Assembly: GCA_029212965.1 (NCBI GenBank)
Contig: JARGOV010000017.1
Span: 2,193-51,552, forward strand
Length of the DNA: 49,360 nucleotides
Direction of reading: 5' to 3'
Origin: Porticoccaceae bacterium
GTDB lineage: Bacteria; Pseudomonadota; Gammaproteobacteria; Pseudomonadales; Porticoccaceae
Numbering within the stretch: position 1 is the stretch's first letter; each line of letters begins with the position of its first letter. The notes below the pieces were generated by a model. It made no database searches. It was not told the DNA's origin and was given only the letters and a program-made list of their open reading frames with translations. Shown here piece after piece: positions 11,158 through 21,255 of the stretch. The position numbers were made by a program, and so were the translations under genes.

Positions 11158-12819
11158 TCAATGCTGATCGCACTCGGCAAGGAAAGTGATCAAACTTTCT
11201 CGGTAATCATAGTAGTCAGGGTGTTCGAGTAAGGCTTTACGCGTGCGTGGACGAGGAAGATCGATATCGATCACTTTACCCACTGTCGCTTCCGGGCCAT
11301 TGGTCATCATCACAACGCGATCGGCCAGCAGTATCGCTTCATCGACGTCATGGGTGACCATCACTGCGGTCAACTTTGTACGATCCCACACCTCCATTAA
11401 CACTTCCTGTAGCTCCCAGCGCGTCAGAGAGTCGAGCATACCGAAGGGCTCATCCAGCAATAATAATTTAGGCGACAACGCAAAGGCACGGGCAATGCCA
11501 ACACGCTGACGCATACCATTAGACATATCGTCCGCCTTTTTATGTAGAGAATCGCCTAAACCAACACGGGTTAGATAATATTCCACAATGTCATTGCGCT
11601 CACTTTGCTGAGCATGTGGGTAGACACTTTCAACACCAAGAGAAACATTTTCTGTCGCCGTCAGCCAGGGAAATAGACTCGGCGCCTGGAAGACAACGGC
11701 ACGATCGGGGCCGGCAGAAACAACTTCCTTACCATCGAGAATAATACCGCCCTTGCTGATTTCGTTAAGGCCCGCTGTCATCGAAAGTACTGTCGACTTG
11801 CCACAACCCGAATGACCAATCAGCGAAATAAATTCGCCTTTTTTCATCTTCAAATTAAAATCTTTAACAACAGCCACGGGGCCTTTTGGCGTTGGGTAGA
11901 CTTTATCGAGTTGGGTATATTCAAGATAGCGTTCCTTACCCAGGTTTTCTGTGGATGGTTTGAGAGCCGTTTTGTCCGCACGCCAATCCGTGGTGGTATT
12001 GGGTCGTACAGGTGGCAAGGCAATGCTACTTTCATTGCTGCTCCCCTCGATACCAATAGCCATCAGGTATTGTGTAATTTCGGCGCGAAGCGCCTTAAAA
12101 GCCGGATCGTGATTCATCGCGCTACGATCACGAGGGCGCGGTAAATCAATTTTAAATTCTGGCCCAAAGGTCGCCTTGGGGCCGGGTTTTAAGGGGATAA
12201 CCCGGTCGGCCATGATCAAGCCTTCATCGACATCATTAGTGATAAGGATGACGGTTTTCTTTTCCTGCTCCCAAATTTGCAAAATCTCATCCTGCAAGTT
12301 GGCCCGCGTTAGAGCATCGAGAGCACTGAGTGGCTCGTCCAGAAGTAAAATATCCGGGCTGGCAGCAAGGGCACGGGCCACATTGACCCGCTGTCGCATA
12401 CCACCAGACAATTCGGCTGGGCGTTTATATAAAGCTGGAGTTAGGCCCACCATATCGACATATTTTAAGACCCGTGCTTCCCTTTCTTTTTTTGGCTTAT
12501 CAGAAAATATTTGATCGACCGAAAGAGCGACATTACCTTGCACAGTGAGCCAGGGCATTAGGGAGTAATTTTGAAAAACTACTCCCCTGTCTGAATCGGG
12601 CCCGGTGATTGCCTTTCCCTCTTTTGTAATTGTGCCTTCGTCAGGCTGTATTAAACCGGCAATGGCTGAAATCAGGGTGGTTTTACCGCTGCCAGAAAAA
12701 CCCACAATGGCAACAAATTCGCCTTCAGTAATTTCCAGATTAATATCTTTCAGCACAGCTGTTTTGTCAGAACCTTCACCGTAGGACTTGCTGACTTTAT
12801 CAAGCGCTAGAAGCGTCAT
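11158..12819 (-). CDS. Nitrate/nitrite ABC transporter, two fused ATPase domains
   Basis: A 553-residue protein with two complete ABC ATPase domains (about 1-260 and 297-553). Domain 1: Walker [10 protein letters not shown] (40-48), signature LSGGMRQ (from 137), Walker B ILLLDEP. Domain 2: Walker [10 protein letters not shown], signature MSNGMRQ (from 432), Walker B LLLLDEP. Each domain ends with the DLPRPR run of the nitrate/taurine subfamily. Domain 1 has Asn195 where the switch histidine is expected (ITNDVDEG), while domain 2 keeps His490, and domain 2 carries SNG instead of SGG. This predicts one normal and one altered ATP site. It energises uptake with the permease 30 bp upstream. Nitrate or nitrite as substrate is inferred from the NasS/NasT context. 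Confidence 0.88.
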
Positions 12820-12849: not shown

Positions 12850-14010
12850 TTAAATATTGGTTTCGCCGAATGAGAATATTTTTTGTAAGGTCATCATTAC
12901 TCGGTCGAGTGCAAAACCAATCAATCCAATAGTGAACACGGCAACCATAATGCGACCCAGCGAATGAGAACTACCGTTTTGAAATTCATCCCAAACAAAC
13001 TTTCCCAAACCGGGATTTTGCGCCAGCATTTCAGCCGCGATTAATACCATCCACCCAACACCGAGAGAAAGGCGTAAACCGGTAAAAATTAAAGGCAGCG
13101 ATGAAGGCAAAATAATTTTAGTAATTTGTGTCATTTTGCTCAGTCGAAGTACTTTACCGACATTTACCAAATCTTTGTCGATTGATGAAACACCTACCGA
13201 TGTATTAATCAATGTTGGCCACAGGGAGCAAAGTGTGACGGTAATAGCTGACGTGAGAAACGACTTGTCGAACCAGGAATCATCATTGGTGACATAAACC
13301 GCGCTGACGATCATAGTCACAATTGGCAACCAGGCCAGTGGCGAGACCGGTTTAAAGATTTGAATAACCGGATTGATTGCCGTATTAACCAAGCTGCTCA
13401 TTCCGCAAAGAATGCCAATAGGTACGGCGACCAATGTGGCTATAACAAAGCCAGTAAACACTGTGTAAAGACTGGTGACTATTTGATCGAGGTAAGTCGC
13501 CTTACCAGTATAGGGCCGGATTTTTACGACAGCATCTGGATTTTTCGCTAATTTTTTTGCATTTCGTGCTTTCTGGCGCTCATAAAAAGCAACGGCTTTT
13601 TCTCTTTCAACGTCATGCTCCTCTAACAAACCCTGGGCTTCCTTATAAACGGCAACCGGTCCTGGTATCACACCAAGACTGGTTTGTATTTGGGCAGCTC
13701 CCCAACTCCAGAACATTAAAAACGCTATAAAAAATAGCACTGGCGCACCAATGACAATTAATAATTCACGAAATTGTGCTTTTGGGCTTTCTCCGCCACA
13801 AAGTTTAACGAGGGGCACAAACCAGGTGAAACCAATTAAATCCAGAACTTTATTAATCCGCACATACAGCGGTGTCGTATCTCCCGATGCTTTATTCTCT
13901 GAAGGGGGTTCTTCACTGGCTATTGCTTGATTGACAAGGGGTGGCTCTGGTGGTGTTTTTTCTGCAGTTTTTTTCATGGCGTCCGGTGTCGTAGCTGTTA
14001 ATTCGGTCAT
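12850..14010 (-). CDS. Nitrate/nitrite ABC transporter permease (NrtB-like)
   Basis: Inner-membrane permease of 386 residues. A Pro/Glu-rich soluble N-terminus (1-75) is followed by a first membrane segment at about 82-104, a charged linker rich in Lys and Glu (125-170), and then the binding-protein-dependent permease domain with several membrane helices (from about 178). The EAA-like cytoplasmic loop that contacts the ATPase is near 278-308 (VNVGKVLRLSK, LPSSLPLIFTGLR). The long N-terminal extension and linker are typical of proteobacterial NrtB-like permeases. It lies between the binding-protein gene and the double-ATPase gene on one transcript. Confidence 0.87.
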   Translation of the reverse strand: MTELTATTPDAMKKTAEKTPPEPPLVNQAIASEEPPSENKASGDTTPLYVRINKVLDLIGFTWFVPLVKLCGGESPKAQFRELLIVIGAPVLFFIAFLMFWSWGAAQIQTSLGVIPGPVAVYKEAQGLLEEHDVEREKAVAFYERQKARNAKKLAKNPDAVVKIRPYTGKATYLDQIVTSLYTVFTGFVIATLVAVPIGILCGMSSLVNTAINPVIQIFKPVSPLAWLPIVTMIVSAVYVTNDDSWFDKSFLTSAITVTLCSLWPTLINTSVGVSSIDKDLVNVGKVLRLSKMTQITKIILPSSLPLIFTGLRLSLGVGWMVLIAAEMLAQNPGLGKFVWDEFQNGSSHSLGRIMVAVFTIGLIGFALDRVMMTLQKIFSFGETNI

Positions 14011-14100: not shown

Positions 14101-15531
14101 CTATTTCGCCTTATCCTTACCTTTTAAACCAATGGGCAAACTCTCTATGTAGGCATTGGGTTTTGTGCCGTCATAGGCGATACCGTCGATAAAGTCTTTT
14201 TGCGGAGGTCGAAAACCACTCTCACTATCGAGGTCGGGAAAGTCGGATGCTTTCAAGGTGCCCCCTTCAATCAAATCCCTAGCGGCAATGGCGTAGAGGT
14301 CGGGGCGATAGACAGACTTAGCCACATCGATATACCAGCTATCGGCTTTAAACTCATCGATTTGACCCCAACGGCGCATTTGTGTGAGATACCAGATCGC
14401 ATCACTGTAATAGGGGTAGGTCGCGTTGTAGCGAAAGAAAACATTAAAGTCAGGCACCTGACGCTTATCGCCTTTTTCGTATTCAAACGTGCCTGTCATG
14501 CTGTTGGCAATAACGTCGTAATCAGCACCCACATAGTTTGACTGTGAAAGTATTTTGACTGCCTCGGGCCGATTGGCATTGTCGTTGGCATCTAACCAAG
14601 CTGCCGCGCGAATTAATGCCTTGACCATACGTGCTGTGGTATTGGGGTATTTCTCAGAAAAGGCTTTGGTAATACCGAACACTTTCTCTGGGTTATCTTT
14701 CCAAATTTCATAATCGGTAATGACCGGCACGCCAATACCTTTAAACACGGCCTGTTGATTCCAAGGTTCGCCCACACAGTAACCAAAGATAGTGCCAGCT
14801 TCCATTGTGGCGGGCATTTGTGGTGGCGGTGTCACTGAAAGAAGTACCTCAGCATTGAGCTGACCACTGATATCTCCCGTCGATGGTGCGTAATAACCGG
14901 GGTGGATACCCCCAGCAGCGAGCCAGTACCGCAACTCATAGTTATGGGTCGAGACCGGAAAAACCATCCCCATATTGAAGGGTTTACCCTGCTCGCGGTA
15001 GCTATCAACAACCGGCTTCAGTGAGCTGGCTTTAATCGGATGGACGGGTTTACCATCAGGTTGAAGGGGAACATGGGGTTTCATTTGCGCCCAAATATCG
15101 TTGGATACGGTAATGGCGTTACCGTTTAGATCCATACTAAAGGGGGTGATAATGTGGGCCTTAGTACCGAAACCAATCGTCGCGGCGAGTGGTTGCCCTG
15201 CCAGCATATGAGCACCATCTAACTGCCCATCAATAACACCGTCGAGTAGGACTTTCCAGTTAGCCTGGGCCTCAAGGGTGACGTACAAGCCTTCGTCTTC
15301 GAAATAGCCCTTCTCATAGGCAACGGCCAAAGGCGCCATATCTGTTAATTTAATAAAACCAAATTTTAATTCTTCTTTTTCAGGCTCCCCTATTTCTGCC
15401 CAGCTCCCTAGTGATAGTAAAGATCCAGCCAGGGCGACCGTGATCGTTTTAAATGTCACCAGCGGGACAGATGTTTTTTTTCGACGTCGAATAATTGCCG
15501 ATAATGTTGATAGCACAGGGTGGTTCGCCAT
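14101..15531 (-). CDS. Nitrate ABC transporter substrate-binding protein (NrtA/CmpA family)
   Basis: A 476-residue exported binding protein. The N-terminus has a positively charged RRRKK segment, then a hydrophobic stretch ([14 protein letters not shown]), so a cleaved signal peptide is likely. Family marks are [42 protein letters not shown] and [10 protein letters not shown]. It captures nitrate, nitrite or bicarbonate in this family; nitrate is favoured by the neighbouring regulator genes. AAGGAG lies 9 bases before the ATG. Its leader carries a sigma-54 type promoter and an antitermination-type attenuator. It resembles the NasS-like protein encoded upstream, which lacks a signal peptide. 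Confidence 0.88.
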
Positions 15532-15580
15532 AATTAACTACTCCTTCAATAACCTTTGTACGTATTAGTACTGCAGGGTA

Positions 15581-15636
15581 AAAAAATAAAAAAGCCAGTT
15601 ATTCACTGACACTCGGGGTCTGTGAATAACTGGCTT
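15581..15636 (-). terminator. Leader terminator (attenuator) before the nrtA-like gene
   Basis: A perfect 15-bp stem (15592-15606 with 15622-15636), then a T-T mismatch and 3 more pairs closing a 7-base loop. On the minus strand it is followed at once by a U-rich run (15593 down to 15581). It lies between the sigma-54 promoter and the start codon, about 60 bases upstream of the ATG, so it should stop transcription unless antitermination occurs. Confidence 0.85.
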
Positions 15637-15643
15637 CGTTGCC
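15632..15643 (-). promoter_or_regulatory. Hexaloop hairpin, candidate NasT (ANTAR) target in the nrtA leader
   Basis: The leader RNA can form GGC-AACGAA-GCC, a six-base loop with A at position 1 and G at position 4, the loop identity recognised by ANTAR antiterminators. Its 3' arm (15632-15636) is also part of the 5' arm of the terminator, so the two structures exclude each other. The stem is only 3 bp, and a second upstream hexaloop was not found. Confidence 0.5.
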
Positions 15644-15674
15644 TTAAAATATTGTTTATGCGCAATTACATTAA

Positions 15675-15690
15675 TACAAATTACATGCCA
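15675..15690 (-). promoter_or_regulatory. Sigma-54 type -24/-12 promoter of the nrtA-like operon
   Basis: On the minus strand the sequence is TGGCATGTAATTTGTA, against the consensus TGGCACG, four bases, TTGCA: 9 of 11 informative positions... the two differences are C to T in the -24 block and GC to GT at -12. Spacing is exact. The start of transcription would fall near 15664. The same variant occurs before the porin gene. Confidence 0.65.
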
Positions 15691-15868
15691 AGCTTTTAAT
15701 TAGCAGCCATTACCTTATAAATAGAAGATGAATACTGACTTTCATTAAAAAAATAATTAACCAAAATGGAATGATGATTTTATTTGGTGCGAAAGATTGA
15801 TAATTTTTATCATTAACTGTCGAGACTGCACTAATTTTGAGCACCTGTTGAAGCGATGTGCTCATCGG

Positions 15869-17080
15869 TTAAGGCTGGCAGGGAGAAAACGTCCCACCGT
15901 TAAGAAACAAGTCTGGCCCTAACTCTAAAGAGTCTTCAAACAGATACGAAGTGGTATGAACACCTTCTTTTTTATAGTCAGTAGAGGGGTATTTATAGCC
16001 GAGTAATAATGCCGCTTCGCGATAAAGGTCAGCTCTATAAACCTTTTCAGTAAGCTGACAGATTTCACTATCACTCATGGTTTCTCCCTGTAACTCGAGA
16101 GTTTTTCTGAGCAAATATTCCGCTCGAGAACGCCAAGGAAACCCTGCCTGGTAGCGGTGAAAAACAATAAAGTCCCTATTATTACGTGTCCCGCTATGTT
16201 TACTGTATTGAAAGTCTCCAAGCAAAGCCGGCTTTAGCACGTGCTCAGGCAAATCTAAATACTGTTGCCGGGCGAGCACGGGGACACTCGCCTGTCGATT
16301 TTCCTGGTGAGATAGCCAGGTTGCAGCCTCCATTACGGCCAGGCGCAAACGCAAATGTGTAGAGGGGTAATTGTTATGCCAGTGCTCGGCGACAACGAGT
16401 GCTTTTTCAGGTGCGTTATTCCATAGCTGATAACCAGAAACGACAGATGAACCGACCCCGGCCTGTATCGCAGCGGTATTCCAGGGTTCGCCCACGCAAA
16501 AGCCATCGATAATGCCCCGCGCAAGATTATCAACCATTTGCTCTGGCGGCAGAACGATAATCTTTACATCACGGTCAGGACATATGCCACCCAACCTTAG
16601 CCAGTGGCGCAATTGAAATGTGTGCATAGAGTAGGGGTAAACCGTCGCCAATGTTAACTGTCGAGGTAAAGTCGAAATAATTTTACCTAATCGTCGTGCT
16701 GCAATTACGGGGTCAGGACAACTGTCACCTGTTTTATTTGTATCAATATCAAGCTGTTTGCTTAAACCAGAGGACAGGGTTATCGCATTACCATTTAAGC
16801 TCAGCATCAAGCCAGTAATAAAGGGGCCTGAGGTGTTTTTAAGACCGGGCGATGTGACCAGGGGCATTGGCGCCAACATTTGCGAGGCATCTAGCGTGCC
16901 GACAGCGACCTTGTCTCGAACATTAGCCCAGGACACCTCTCTGCTAAGCGTGACCTCTAACCCGTAGCGTTCAAAAAACTTTTGTTCATGGGCAATGATA
17001 AGCGGTGCGCTGTCACTTAGACGCATATAGCCAATATTGAGGTGCGTTTTTTCTGCTGGGCTGAGACTATTTAGGTTCAT
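15869..17080 (-). CDS. nasS: Nitrate sensor NasS, cytoplasmic NrtA-like protein
   Basis: A 403-residue member of the NrtA/CmpA family without a signal peptide, as expected for NasS, which binds nitrate or nitrite in the cytoplasm and releases NasT. Family marks: LNIGYMRLSDSAPLIIAHEQ, DASQMLAPMPL, SLNGNAITLSS and DGFCVGEPWN. The frame is open to 17140, but the ATG at 17080 has GAAGG 9 bases upstream and starts at the conserved part, so it is chosen. It overlaps the nasT stop by 14 bp, which suggests translational coupling and equal dosage of the two partners. Confidence 0.86.
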   Translation of the reverse strand: MNLNSLSPAEKTHLNIGYMRLSDSAPLIIAHEQKFFERYGLEVTLSREVSWANVRDKVAVGTLDASQMLAPMPLVTSPGLKNTSGPFITGLMLSLNGNAITLSSGLSKQLDIDTNKTGDSCPDPVIAARRLGKIISTLPRQLTLATVYPYSMHTFQLRHWLRLGGICPDRDVKIIVLPPEQMVDNLARGIIDGFCVGEPWNTAAIQAGVGSSVVSGYQLWNNAPEKALVVAEHWHNNYPSTHLRLRLAVMEAATWLSHQENRQASVPVLARQQYLDLPEHVLKPALLGDFQYSKHSGTRNNRDFIVFHRYQAGFPWRSRAEYLLRKTLELQGETMSDSEICQLTEKVYRADLYREAALLLGYKYPSTDYKKEGVHTTSYLFEDSLELGPDLFLNGGTFSPCQP

Positions 17081-17690
17081 CCACGGGTGCCTTCTTTGAA
17101 TCTTGATCCAGAATTGCGATAACGTTTTTAGCAACATCAACCAGGGTTTGATTATTATTCATGGCGAGGTTACGCATATTTTTATGGGCCTCGGGTTCAG
17201 CTATTTTTTGATGCTTCATCAATAAGCGCTTGGCTTTATCGAGCGTATTTTTATCATCCAATGCTTGTTGGGTACTACTAAGCTGTTGTCGTAACGCCTG
17301 AAACATTTCAAATTGAGCTAGAGCAACGTCGATAACAGGTTTAACCTTGTCAGGGTTAATATCCTCCATCAAATAAGCACTGACACCGACATTTATCGCC
17401 TGGCGGATAAACGCTGGGTCCTCCTCATTCGAGAACATCACCACCGGTGTCGGATTGTGCTGGTTTATCAGTGACAGGCTTTCGAGAATATCTCGATCAG
17501 GAGACTCAATGTCTATCATTACCACATGTGGTTTGAGCTCCTGGATTTGAAATAACAGGCCCGATGCACTGGTCAACATTGCAACAATATGGAAGCCGCA
17601 GACATTGAGTGCCTGCTCGACCATAGCAGCACGCTGGGGGTGGTCGTCGACCAACATTACGCGAACTTCTTTGTGACTAGAGTGATCCAA
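17067..17690 (-). CDS. nasT: Nitrate-responsive antiterminator NasT (receiver plus ANTAR domain)
   Basis: A 207-residue protein with a receiver-like N-terminal domain (VMLVDDHPQR with Asp15/Asp16; Asp60 at the phosphorylation position in MIDIES; late FSNEED region) and a C-terminal ANTAR RNA-binding domain (about 130-195, with LDKAKRLLMKHQKIAEPEAH). NasT binds leader RNA and prevents termination; NasS holds it inactive without nitrate. The start is a TTG at 17690; the next Met (residue 12) would remove the first beta strand, so TTG is preferred. The porin gene lies upstream on the same strand with a terminator between. Confidence 0.9.
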   Translation of the reverse strand: MDHSSHKEVRVMLVDDHPQRAAMVEQALNVCGFHIVAMLTSASGLLFQIQELKPHVVMIDIESPDRDILESLSLINQHNPTPVVMFSNEEDPAFIRQAINVGVSAYLMEDINPDKVKPVIDVALAQFEMFQALRQQLSSTQQALDDKNTLDKAKRLLMKHQKIAEPEAHKNMRNLAMNNNQTLVDVAKNVIAILDQDSKKAPVDEPK

Positions 17691-17752
17691 TACAACCTAT
17701 CCTATAGCCTTAGGCCTGATATTTTTTTACCGCGTACACCTGCAGTCACTAC

Positions 17753-17834
17753 AAAAAAGTGTTGCCATTCGAGCGGGGCTTCATACCAAGTTGGCAATCC
17801 TTATTCGCCTGGTATGACTGAGAAGCACGCCCCT
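17753..17834 (-). terminator. Structured terminator between the porin gene and nasT
   Basis: On the minus strand, about 22 bases past the porin stop, CATACC/GGTATG arms (17782-17787 and 17811-17816) and a second, mutually exclusive hairpin TTGCCA/TGGCAA (17792-17797 with 17762-17767) are possible. The second is followed two bases later by six U (17758-17753). It most simply ends the porin transcript. No A1/G4 hexaloop is seen here. Confidence 0.55.
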
Positions 17835-17856
17835 TGTTCACTAAACCGTATACACG

Positions 17857-19083
17857 CTAAAACGTCGCTGTCACCATCAACCAGGCTTTATCCGTATCGG
17901 TAGAAAAATCATCGGCCTCATAGGCCGCGTATTTGAATAATACGCTGTAATTCTTGCTGAATTTATACGCCGCAATGAAATCGAACTCACTGCCGTAATC
18001 CATGCCGCCTGTTTCCGCTTCAAAATCGTGGTAGAAGGCGATGAGTTTGACGCCCGCTATTTTTGTGGCGACTTTTAGGTAGGTATCTTCAATTCCGCCA
18101 GCAGGGGTCACCAGGAATTTGTCAGCGAAACCCTGGAACTTGTGCAATGTTGCCAAGGGGGTCTTAAAACCTATACCGTTATCACTCTCAAGTACTTCGT
18201 ACCCAAGTGCAACAGTCACTGGCTGAGTTTTAATAGCTAGCTCCGCAAAATAATAGCCAGCGTCATAGTCGAGAGGGCTATCTTTGTAATCACTTTGCTC
18301 AGCATAGGATAGATTAACCCCAAGACTGACACCATCGCTGACATTAAATCCGCCTTTGTATTCCAGCCCATAAGTACTGCTCGATAGGGCCGGGGCTTCT
18401 TCGAGGTCAAGTAAATAGCTAAAACCAGACAGGGTGTGGCCATCGGCAATTTTATAGGTAGCGATAAGTGCGTGGCTATCGCCCTCAAAATCAGCATCGG
18501 CTCCCTCAGGTCCAAATATACGGTTAACATCCCATATATAGCTGTAGTTGACCGTCAAGCTCTTCAGGGGTGCTAAAGAAATGCTCGCTGCATCAAAGGT
18601 TTGTTCATTTTGACGCCAGCCGACACCCCCCAAAAAGCGCTGCCCACTGTGGTTAATACGCTGGCGACCCAAGGTTGCCTTGTTTTTATCATCAAAGGCA
18701 TAGCTGATAAATGCCTGATTCACTTCTGTGTAATCCGGGTCTGCAACCACCGGATAGTTCGTTTTCCCATTTTCAGTATTGTTAAAGTTATCGTTACCGA
18801 TATAACTCACATTATCGACTTCAACTAAACCCATGAAACCCTCAGCCACACCTGATTTAAGGGTAATTCGCGACCTTAGTGTCGATGCATCAGCATCCTC
18901 TGGCTTACCGTCCTGATCAACATTCTCATAGCGGTAACGTAAGCTTAAGGCGACATCGCCTCCATCAATAGCTTCGCTAATACTATCAGCGAAAGGCTTG
19001 GCACTCGTCAGTGTTGATACAGACAGGCCCAGTACAACAGCACTTAGTGCAGCTGGGGTAATTTTCAATGAACGACTCAACAT
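17857..19083 (-). CDS. Outer-membrane porin, alginate-export-like beta barrel, likely nitrate-regulon porin
   Basis: A 408-residue protein with a signal peptide (hydrophobic run PAALSAVVLGLSVSTLTSA), then an alternating beta-strand pattern ending in VTATF, with the C-terminal Phe typical of barrels inserted by Bam. The segment SLRYRYENVDQDG and GRQRINHSGQRF resemble the alginate-export-like porin family. The open frame extends to 19215, but the ATG at 19083 has GAGGAGAG 8-9 bases upstream and begins with the signal peptide, so it is chosen. The leader has a sigma-54 type promoter, hexaloop hairpin and attenuator matching the nrtA leader. It probably lets nitrate or nitrite cross the outer membrane; the substrate is inferred. 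Confidence 0.8.
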   Translation of the reverse strand: MLSRSLKITPAALSAVVLGLSVSTLTSAKPFADSISEAIDGGDVALSLRYRYENVDQDGKPEDADASTLRSRITLKSGVAEGFMGLVEVDNVSYIGNDNFNNTENGKTNYPVVADPDYTEVNQAFISYAFDDKNKATLGRQRINHSGQRFLGGVGWRQNEQTFDAASISLAPLKSLTVNYSYIWDVNRIFGPEGADADFEGDSHALIATYKIADGHTLSGFSYLLDLEEAPALSSSTYGLEYKGGFNVSDGVSLGVNLSYAEQSDYKDSPLDYDAGYYFAELAIKTQPVTVALGYEVLESDNGIGFKTPLATLHKFQGFADKFLVTPAGGIEDTYLKVATKIAGVKLIAFYHDFEAETGGMDYGSEFDFIAAYKFSKNYSVLFKYAAYEADDFSTDTDKAWLMVTATF

Positions 19084-19161
19084 TCGGACTCTCCTCGGAT
19101 TAATAACAGCAGGCAATAATATTGCGGCTAACGCTGTTGACTGAATGAGTAAAAACAAAGC

Positions 19162-19203
19162 AAAAAAAAGCCCATAGGCCACGGGAGGGGGTGACCTATG
19201 AGC
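19162..19203 (-). terminator. Leader terminator (attenuator) before the porin gene
   Basis: Arms 19191-19203 and 19170-19182 form a 13-bp stem with two G-U pairs around an 8-base loop. On the minus strand eight U follow directly (19169-19162). It lies about 80 bases upstream of the porin ATG and downstream of its sigma-54 type promoter, so it is a conditional terminator within the leader and not the end of another gene. Confidence 0.82.
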
Positions 19204-19213
19204 TCCATTGCTC
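19200..19213 (-). promoter_or_regulatory. Hexaloop hairpin, candidate NasT (ANTAR) target in the porin leader
   Basis: The RNA GAGCAATGGAGCTC forms a 4-bp stem with loop AATGGA, A at 1 and G at 4. Its 3' arm GCTC is shared with the 5' arm of the terminator, so formation of one blocks the other. Further upstream AGCGGA and TCCGCT (around 19249 and 19222) can pair as a possible first stem, but without a hexaloop. Confidence 0.6.
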
Positions 19214-19266
19214 AATAGCGGAACAGGGGGGTATTACAGCTTGATGAATCCGCTGACTAACAACAA

Positions 19267-19282
19267 TACAATTCCCATGCCA
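19267..19282 (-). promoter_or_regulatory. Sigma-54 type -24/-12 promoter of the porin gene
   Basis: The minus-strand sequence TGGCATGGGAATTGTA has the same TGGCATG and TTGTA blocks with the same four-base spacing as the promoter at 15675-15690, while the spacer bases differ. Transcription would start near 19257, giving a leader of about 170 bases containing the hexaloop and attenuator. Confidence 0.68.
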
Positions 19283-19642: not shown

Positions 19643-20404
19643 ATGGGAACTTTAGATGGAAAAGTAGCACTTATTACCGGCGCGGCCCGCGGCCAGGGCG
19701 CTGCAGAAGCAAGACTCTTCGTCGAACGTGGAGCCAAAGTGATGATGACCGACGTACTCGACGACGAAGGCCAACAAGTCGCTGCACAAATCGGTGATAG
19801 CGCAGCCTACATGCACCTTGATGTGACGAGTGAGCAAGGCTGGAAAGACGTCGTCGCTGCCACTGTCAAAAAATTTGGCAAGCTGAACGTTCTTATTAAT
19901 AACGCTGGCATTATCACACCCGCAAAAGAAGTTCATGAAACATCATTAGAAGACTACCGTAAGGTCATCGACATCAATCAAATTGGTGTTTTTCTTGGTA
20001 TGCGAGAAGTTGTCGAGCCAATGAAAAATGCCGGTGGCGGCTCAATCGTCAACATATCTTCCATTGATGGCTTAACCGGCATGTACGGTGCCAGCGCTTA
20101 TTGTGCCAGTAAGTTTGCGGTACGAGGTATGACCAAAGTTGCGGCACTAGAGCTGGGTAAATACGCCATCCGTGTCAACTCTCTCCACCCAGGTGGTGTG
20201 AAAACGAAGATATTGGATGACATTAACCTTAGCGAAGAGCAGGCAGAAGAAGCGTTTAAAGCGAGTCCTTTGGGCCGCATTGGCAAATCGGAAGAAATGG
20301 CAACGCTGGCAGCTTATCTCGCCTCAGATGACGCCTCCTACTCAACCGGGTCCGAATTTGTTGCCGACGGCGGTTTAACCGCAGGCTTCTCTCTCGATAG
20401 CTAA
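19643..20404 (+). CDS. Short-chain dehydrogenase, first tandem copy
   Basis: A 253-residue classical SDR: TGAARGQG (12-19), Asp37 for NAD selection (MTDVLDDEG), NNAG (86-89), Ser140, Tyr153 and Lys157. The pattern resembles the bacterial 3-alpha/20-beta-hydroxysteroid dehydrogenase group (HLDVT, NISSIDG, GASAYCASKFAVRG), so a hydroxyl/ketone on a bulky alicyclic substrate is plausible but unproved. AGGGG precedes the ATG. The next gene is a close paralogue 92 bp away, with a terminator between. It is cytoplasmic. Confidence 0.9.
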   Translation: MGTLDGKVALITGAARGQGAAEARLFVERGAKVMMTDVLDDEGQQVAAQIGDSAAYMHLDVTSEQGWKDVVAATVKKFGKLNVLINNAGIITPAKEVHETSLEDYRKVIDINQIGVFLGMREVVEPMKNAGGGSIVNISSIDGLTGMYGASAYCASKFAVRGMTKVAALELGKYAIRVNSLHPGGVKTKILDDINLSEEQAEEAFKASPLGRIGKSEEMATLAAYLASDDASYSTGSEFVADGGLTAGFSLDS

Positions 20405-20496: not shown

Positions 20497-21255
20497 ATGA
20501 GTAATTTAAAAGGAAAAGTTGCACTGATTACTGGCGCAGCACGGGGTCAGGGTGCTGCAGAAGCTCGTCTCTTCGCGGCTCGAGGCGCTAAAGTCGTTAT
20601 TACCGATGTGCTCGATCAAGAGGGCAAGCAAGTCGCCGCCGATATTGGCGATGCAGCTCTCTACATTCACCTGGATGTTACCGATGAAAACTCCTGGGCA
20701 GCAGCAGTCAAAGAAACCGTTGCACATTTTGGCAAACTCAACGTGCTGGTCAACAATGCCGGTATTGTTCAGGTCAAACCACTCATTGACACAAGTGTTG
20801 CCGACTATATGAAAGTCATCGAAATCAACCAGCTGGGTGTTTTTCTTGGCATGCGCTCTGTTGCAGGGGCAATGAAAGACGCCGGCAGTGGCTCGATCAT
20901 TAATATTTCTTCCATCGACGGGCTTATCGGTATGTCCGGCGGTTCAGCCTACTGTGCGAGTAAGTTTGCAGTGCGCGGCATGACCAAGGTCGCCGCCATG
21001 GAATTGGGACCCGATAACATTCGCGTCAACTCCATTCACCCCGGCGGTATTCACACGCCTATGATTACCCAAGCGGGCATGGACGAGTCAGTCATGACAG
21101 ATATTTTCAGCAAGGTGCCGCTAGGGCGTGTTGGTCAGCCTGAAGAAATGGCAACGCTGGCCGCTTATTTAGCCTCTGATGACAGCTCTTACTCCACCGG
21201 TTCAGAGTTCATCGCCGATGGTGGTTTGACGTCGGGCTTTTCCCTTGAACACTAA
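20497..21255 (+). CDS. Short-chain dehydrogenase, second tandem copy
   Basis: A 252-residue SDR, roughly two-thirds identical by eye to the preceding copy over its whole length. TGAARGQG (12-19), NNAG, and Ser139, Tyr152, Lys156 are intact, so both copies should be active. They differ most in the substrate loop after residue 185 (HTPMITQAGMDES here against KTKILDDINLSEE in copy 1), which points to diverged substrate or stereo preference. AAGG lies 8 bases before the ATG. A terminator follows at 21301-21340. Confidence 0.9.
   Translation: MSNLKGKVALITGAARGQGAAEARLFAARGAKVVITDVLDQEGKQVAADIGDAALYIHLDVTDENSWAAAVKETVAHFGKLNVLVNNAGIVQVKPLIDTSVADYMKVIEINQLGVFLGMRSVAGAMKDAGSGSIINISSIDGLIGMSGGSAYCASKFAVRGMTKVAAMELGPDNIRVNSIHPGGIHTPMITQAGMDESVMTDIFSKVPLGRVGQPEEMATLAAYLASDDSSYSTGSEFIADGGLTSGFSLEH

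Follow-up and report, generated by a model that had tools for sequence, protein, structure and literature searches.

Known ANTAR antitermination systems and the Porticoccaceae locus

The NasS-NasT systems of Paracoccus denitrificans, Bradyrhizobium, Azotobacter vinelandii and Pseudomonas putida pair a nitrate sensor with an adjoining ANTAR regulator and place nitrogen-oxide genes behind leader attenuators, with nitrogen control on top (PMC3795266, PMC5424462, PMC6759348). In Paracoccus, nitrate brings about the release of NasT from NasS (PMC3795266). On the RNA side, the Enterococcus faecalis eut and Klebsiella oxytoca nasF leaders carry a hairpin (P2) with a six-base loop that has A at position 1 and G at position 4 (the A1/G4 hexaloop), is closed by a C-G pair and shares sequence with the terminator (PMC3369931, PMC7496416); a second A1/G4 hexaloop, P1, lies upstream of it, in eut across a linker of 5-12 nucleotides. 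We analysed a stretch of 49,360 nucleotides from the genome of a Porticoccaceae bacterium (assembly GCA_029212965.1, contig JARGOV010000017.1), hereafter the window, whose minus strand holds a nitrate-uptake locus with the same parts: an adjoining sensor and ANTAR regulator (nasS and nasT), and two attenuated leaders, one before an outer-membrane porin gene and one before the nitrate transporter gene nrtA. It differs from the studied NasS-NasT systems in having one A1/G4 hexaloop per leader, and from the dual-hexaloop RNAs of eut and nasF in that P1 is missing, being absent from the window leaders and near the chance level in the clade to which they belong. The targets differ as well: those studied include the reductase genes nasABGHC, nos and nap, whereas here they are the ABC transporter and the porin gene, the latter alone or with nasTS, and nirB is without an attenuator of its own. 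Judged from sequence comparison, the leaders look like a conserved single-hexaloop variant of ANTAR antitermination.

Single hexaloops with overlapping terminators

The two leaders contain the following elements, numbered from the first base of the window:

19267..19282, minus strand: sigma-54-type element TGGCATGGGAATTGTA before the porin gene, -24 GG and -12 GT (exact match; predicted start near 19256)
19199..19214, minus strand: P2-type hexaloop hairpin TGAGC[AATGGA]GCTCA of the porin leader (loop 19209-19204)
19160..19206, minus strand: putative intrinsic terminator of the porin leader, its 5' arm starting in the hexaloop (folding, covariation, model match of 48.1 bits as a training sequence)
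15675..15690, minus strand: sigma-54-type element TGGCATGTAATTTGTA before nrtA (exact match; predicted start near 15664)
15632..15643, minus strand: P2-type hexaloop hairpin GGC[AACGAA]GCC of the nrtA leader (loop 15640-15635)
15579..15637, minus strand: putative intrinsic terminator of the nrtA leader with a 16-pair stem, its 5' arm starting at hexaloop position 4 (folding, model match of 51.3 bits as a training sequence)

That both leaders share one order of elements, with the 5' arm of the terminator overlapping the hexaloop hairpin, was the core of the original prediction, and reading both leaders confirmed it: in each a sigma-54-type site is followed by an A1/G4 hexaloop with a C-G closing pair, and the terminator begins inside the loop. 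The hairpin and the terminator share an arm, so they are mutually exclusive. The stem of the nrtA-side hexaloop has just 3 pairs, and its loop is identical in the relatives L084 and L085; in the porin leader of L084 the stem is TGGGC/GCCCA and the loop is that of the window. The two leader pieces fold with z scores of -9.6 and -4.6. A scan of both strands for an A1/G4 hexaloop whose 3' side opens a terminator (hereafter the composite) found exactly two instances in the window, namely these leaders; over 40 first-order Markov shuffles the average was 0.225 per window (maximum 2), or 0.025 (maximum 1) when a sigma-54-type site was included. The original prediction had also asked for a match to an ANTAR RNA model. 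No Rfam family reached its gathering score in the window, so this part could be assessed only with a covariance model of our own, which matched both leaders, themselves among the 30 leader segments from which it was built.

Conservation of the leaders among relatives

The loci of relatives are the best 80 of 154 from a scan of our genome collection, in which the series L034-L073 and L084-L163 overlap, the same genomes having been reached by two routes. NasT matches at E <= 1e-10 occur in 112 of 293 genomes of the order, the weaker ones including other proteins with ANTAR and receiver domains. Among the listed loci, the closest relatives of the window are Porticoccaceae/SAR92-type genomes; for some loci the group names Halieaceae and SAR92 are presumed by us.

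Gene order and leaders are conserved across these relatives. A porin homologue lies upstream of nasT in 45 of the 80 loci and is preceded by the composite in 41; three of the four exceptions are at contig ends, and the fourth, from Halioglobus (L137), has the same layout with A for G at loop position 4. Similarly, nrtA (>60% identity) lies downstream in 47 of the 80 and has the composite before it in 41, the six misses appearing by eye as near forms, with the loop GATGTT in two, a weak T run in three and A4 in one. In L137 (Halioglobus pacificus) the hexaloops of both leaders, before 4615 and 8209, have A at position 4 (AATACT and AACAAC), possibly a joint change of both targets. As a measure of background, the composite scan gave 13 matches without a sigma-54-type site in the 80 loci, at least some of them chance matches inside genes.

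When the window leaders are set beside those of the three nearest relatives, the blocks held in common consist mostly of promoter element, hexaloop and terminator. In an alignment of 30 sequences 92% of the terminator-stem cells are paired, with 94 double-side changes against 30.6 in shuffles; for the P2 stem 97% are paired, with little variation and weak covariation support. A1 and G4 are invariant in this alignment, which is no evidence because both were search criteria.

Absence of the upstream hexaloop

The original prediction had cautioned that only one hexaloop per leader was clear. This caveat stands, as a second A1/G4 hexaloop is absent from both leaders, and on comparison of leader sequences the lack is a lineage-wide trait and not a weakness of this one sequence. 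P1 was counted in 138 distinct leaders as a hexaloop with a C-G closing pair within 60 nucleotides upstream of P2. Rows lacking a sigma-54-type site of score 12.5 within 160 nucleotides, those whose hexaloop is followed by another composite within 45 nucleotides and exact duplicates were dropped; near-identical leaders were retained, except in the folding and word analyses, where an 80% filter was used. For these counts the window clade was set by a NasT residue described below (His/Phe), with L085 and L086 added and L063 and L073, which the tree places elsewhere, removed.

A P1 of at least 4 pairs was found in 27 of the 40 leaders outside the clade (shuffle mean 0.37) and in 2 of the 98 inside (shuffle mean 0.82, maximum 4). 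If 3 pairs are allowed to suffice, the count outside is 30 of 40 (shuffle mean 1.2, maximum 5). Free folding from the predicted start to P2 pointed the same way, with A1/G4 in 28 of 34 predicted hexaloops outside (33 leaders) and in 0 of 9 inside (50 leaders). We noted further that the segment before P2 measures at most 16 nucleotides in 19 of the 98 clade leaders, with 4-5 nucleotides in 11 and 15-16 in 8. The 11 are all of Microbulbifer type, and no hairpin fits into them provided that the promoter is right; 16 nucleotides are just enough for a 3-pair hairpin, as in L091. Word enrichment and hairpin folding of the pre-P2 segments in the clade, aimed at another kind of P1, gave nothing shared: the best 6-mers, TGCAAT and GCAATG, were each seen in 7 leaders where about 1.2 would be expected, a count that the best word of the shuffles also reached. 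By this comparison the clade lacks a standard P1.

Changes in NasT and in the P2 loop

In a NasT tree of 92 rows the window clade forms one group of 58 (Shimodaira-Hasegawa-like approximate likelihood ratio test, 97; quick method, midpoint root), and by a slightly looser rule P1 is present in 3 of these 58 rows and in 23 of the 34 others. The P2 loop of the 98 leaders inside the clade is AACGAA in 30, AACGAT in 18 and AATGAA in 14, and it is closed by C-G in 66 of them and by U-G in the other 32; outside it is AAAGGC in 26 of 40, with C-G closing in all 40. The consensus is accordingly AACGAW in the clade versus AAAGGC elsewhere. EutV Tyr164 stacks on G4 (PMC8934654). At the corresponding NasT position the tree rows inside the clade have His or Phe, L085 and L086 alone having Tyr, and those outside have Tyr, with L063 and L073 as exceptions; the Tyr-type clade members L085 and L086 likewise lack P1. 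The EutV contacts K147, K149, E160, R168, M172 and N173 are kept in the window NasT (by alignment, with numbering counted from D54). The three changes, in P1, loop consensus and aromatic residue, coincide on about one branch. An association of the aromatic residue with P1 over the tree was tried and rejected, as it was not significant, the starred branches yielding 2 independent pairs and the full set of branches 4; because there are just 2 such pairs, the change from Tyr to His/Phe and the loss of P1 count as a single clade-level coincidence.

Association of the leaders with NasT

In the genome of the window (2.76 Mb, 94% complete) the only ANTAR match is this NasT. The covariance model has two strong matches there, which are the two leaders (both training sequences), and no third strong copy among the 150 of 910 first-look candidates that were scored: the next match, of 21.8 bits, lacks the hexaloop part, and one weak match (14.7 bits, E 3.5) covers the entire model. 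Across 61 genomes of the family the model matches 21 and NasT (E <= 1e-40) is found in 20. The RNA is present in 20 of the 20 with NasT, several of which had supplied training sequences, and in 1 of the 41 without, a genome 66% complete with a weak match. Within the window genus, NasT and the RNA occur together in 3 of 7 genomes and are both absent from 4. The proposal that the two leaders form a NasT regulon is thus supported as the best reading, with a sole ANTAR protein, an RNA that tracks NasT over 61 genomes and conserved leaders, and the assignment of the leaders to NasT appears well supported.

Among the 46 model matches in these genomes, seven in other genera that lie outside the usual two leaders of the window layout were read. 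With the genes named by eye, one is cut by a contig end and the others precede nrtA (two), nasT (one), a siroheme-synthase-like gene followed by a transporter (one), and a FAD oxidoreductase followed by multiheme cytochrome genes (two). The last two are in genus g2, away from nasT (L210, G242:C1 near 1520590; L211, G325:C2 near 53938).

In 14 Microbulbifer loci without a porin match the composite lies before nasT in 7, within 69-124 nucleotides in 4, and no terminator-like site was found on the minus strand between the porin gene and nasT in the window; together these suggest a positive feedback of NasT on its own operon.

The nirB gene of the window genome (L083, G000:C16:92236-94614) has a good sigma-54-type site and a leader of about 60-85 nucleotides without hexaloop or terminator. 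An attenuator-free nirB with a sigma-54-type site is found in all 6 genus genomes that have nirB (the relatives being L170, L172 and L174-L176), and 3 of the 6 have no NasT; therefore NasT in this genus seems to gate uptake and not reduction. Of 28 nirB loci in the family, 18 had usable leaders, 10 being uncounted (wrong-strand frame, truncation, no upstream sequence or no long frame), and the composite occurs in 1 of the 18, L182, where the model match precedes nirB. The distance from nirB to nasT is no more than about 10 kb in some other genera (G242, G078, G202), where the nrt leader may serve nirB too.

Sigma-54-type promoter elements

The sequence TGGCATG-N4-TTGTA reported upstream of nrtA and the porin gene is present at 15690-15675 and 19282-19267, and these are the only two exact matches to TGGCAYRNNNNTTGYW within the window. 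The porin-leader element has TGGCA and TTG in common with the three nearest relatives, in which the nrtA-leader element is also kept. At the -12 position, 61 distinct clade sites have GT (21), GA (21), GC (17) and GG (2), and outside the clade GC is found in 8 of 12. Both rpoN and ntrC were found in the genome, and both operons would be under sigma-54 and NtrC control.

Genes of the nitrate-uptake locus

The minus-strand gene order is porin, nasT, nasS, nrtA, nrtB and a two-ATPase nrtCD:

17857..19083, minus strand: outer-membrane porin gene, Alginate_exp family (Pfam PF13372, E 5.5e-10)
17067..17690, minus strand: nasT, receiver plus ANTAR RNA-binding antiterminator (PF00072 and PF03861; best PDB match EutV 6wsh, E 1.2e-15)
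15869..17140, minus strand: nasS, nitrate-sensor-like protein with the NrtA fold (PF13379; further matches to NrtA 2g29 and to the regulatory domains in nitrate ABC ATPases)
14101..15531, minus strand: nrtA, nitrate ABC transporter binding protein (PF13379, E 2.9e-98)
12850..14010, minus strand: nrtB, permease (PF00528; TIGR01183 below its cut-off)
11158..12819, minus strand: nrtCD, double-ATPase protein (TIGR01184 over two stretches, E 1.1e-183)

As had been stated, nasT, with its receiver and ANTAR domains, is situated between both targets, the porin and nrtA leaders lying on either side. The receiver-ANTAR protein adjoins an NrtA-like sensor, as in NasS-NasT pairs; the nasS open frame overlaps nasT, and its true start is probably the ATG near 17080. 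The nrtCD product joins two ABC ATPase domains in a single protein of 553 amino acids, matched over its full length in L084 and L085 (L086 ends at the locus end) and in most other relatives mainly over its C-terminal half. An inverted repeat, GAGCAC-N13-GTGCTC, lies at 15839-15863, just past nasS and about 150 nucleotides upstream of the nrtA promoter element, and has no clear form in L084-L086. Two adjoining and similar short-chain dehydrogenase-like genes on the plus strand (19643-20404 and 20497-21255; the family search covered the first) point away from the porin leader.

Proposed mechanism and alternatives

Both operons would start at sigma-54-type promoters and would therefore probably be switched on by nitrogen limitation. 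By default RNA polymerase would halt at the terminator in the leader, whose structure is backed by comparison and whose activity is presumed. In the presence of nitrate NasS would free NasT, on the precedent of the Paracoccus pair, and NasT would hold the A1/G4 hexaloop at the 5' edge of the terminator, such that its GC-rich base could not form; the porin gene, alone or with nasT and nasS, and nrtABCD would then be transcribed. The clade leaders would make do with that one hexaloop, without the recruitment hexaloop P1. We consider it likely that such antitermination by NasT, through a single hexaloop and without P1, explains both operons as a whole. A more far-reaching version, for which we see about equal chances of being right and wrong, holds that a mostly marine gammaproteobacterial lineage (Porticoccaceae/SAR92, Halieaceae, Microbulbifer) rebuilt ANTAR antitermination on one hexaloop: P1 was lost, AAAGGC became AACGAW, U-G closing was allowed, the G4-stacking Tyr became His/Phe, the NasT dimer captures the terminator hexaloop directly, and positive feedback arises where nasTS share the operon.

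The work on EutV bears on such capture. EutV binds the isolated P2 at micromolar affinity with no significant difference from the double motif, and its dimer cannot hold both hexaloops together, P1 being proposed as a recruitment hairpin; likewise, in structure 6WW6, which presents a single hexaloop as the minimal ANTAR binding motif, one hexaloop is contacted per ANTAR dimer at a time. The EutV antitermination model keeps P1, whereas the leaders here appear to be without it and NasT has His for EutV Tyr164 (PMC8934654). Since EutV and NasR bind isolated P2 at the micromolar level, direct capture by NasT is plausible but not assured.

Several observations weigh against NasT antitermination through a single hexaloop. 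In E. faecalis eutP, deletion of P1 or an altered linker lowers induction (PMC3369931), and binding of NasR to a lone P2 takes about 12 uM and is weaker than to the double motif (PMC7496416). In the window NasT not only is Tyr164 replaced by His, but R142, K143, R175 and R177 of EutV are Lys, Asn, Asn and Thr. Neither leader has the canonical C of the -12 element (GT, not GC), even though -24 GG and the 10-base spacing are present; one-mismatch sigma-54-type matches in the window (7 versus 4.6 expected) are not above chance, and NtrC-like sites there are at chance (14 matches versus 16.8 expected), with none standing out. The argument that some leaders have no room for P1 hangs on the promoter assignment. 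Inside the clade a P1 of at least 3 pairs occurs in 6 of the 98 leaders (shuffle mean 2.0, maximum 7), and GAC[ATTGCA]GTC, a possible 3-pair P1, stands at the predicted start of the porin leader in L088, L089 and L091, which appear to be the sole real exceptions in the clade. Lastly, after deduplication there are 50 clade leaders with 25 or more nucleotides before P2, and half of them fold more than one standard deviation better than shuffles (mean z -1.15); those upstream hairpins could be P1 of another kind.

This last point favors an alternative that we hold to be unlikely, in which the leaders are ordinary two-hairpin ANTAR targets whose first hairpin is present but falls outside the A1/G4 rule, and so escapes the search. 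In addition, the porin leaders of the window and L084 have an upstream stem AGCGGA..TCCGCT in common, and in some hairpins outside the clade (L153, L059) G1/G4 loops occupy the place of P1. Speaking against a hidden P1 are the failure of any common loop or word to rise above shuffles in the clade, the very short pre-P2 segments of the 11 and 8 leaders described above, and the lack, in both leaders, of any block in this segment that the window has in common with its three nearest relatives.

It is very improbable that NasT binds the hexaloops with a main effect other than antitermination, such as its own titration or an effect on translation. Single-hexaloop ANTAR sites have been proposed where there is no polymerase race, as in sequestration (PMC8934654), but here the 3' arm of the hexaloop is shared with a covarying terminator; this overlap was a search criterion, yet it is found in 82 of the 92 porin and nrtA leaders chosen by gene position. 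Least credible of all, and contradicted by the comparison, are constitutive terminators with coincidental hexaloops. A terminator would be common at the nrtA-side site, which comes after nasS on its own strand, but not at the porin-side site, which has divergent genes to either side; the shuffles predict far fewer composites than the two seen, and the composite recurs before most porin and nrtA genes in tight linkage with the presence of NasT.

Implications

In the literature searched, which was mostly outside subscription journals and without the Azotobacter and Pseudomonas antitermination papers, neither NasT leaders with a single hexaloop nor a porin under NasT control were found described. 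The component parts are known, and the P1-less clade-wide form is new. On the use of two hexaloops by an ANTAR dimer the published findings point two ways, as the EutV structure suggests one at a time and eutP needs both; the authors of the EutV-RNA study leave the role of single hexaloops open and call for work on such sites (PMC8934654). A clade without P1, in which some leaders have hardly any RNA before P2, offers natural templates for asking whether P1, as a recruitment device, is dispensable. The genes that are probably under NasT control in marine bacteria, including the SAR92 group, are extended by an outer-membrane porin gene and, in some genomes, by nasT.

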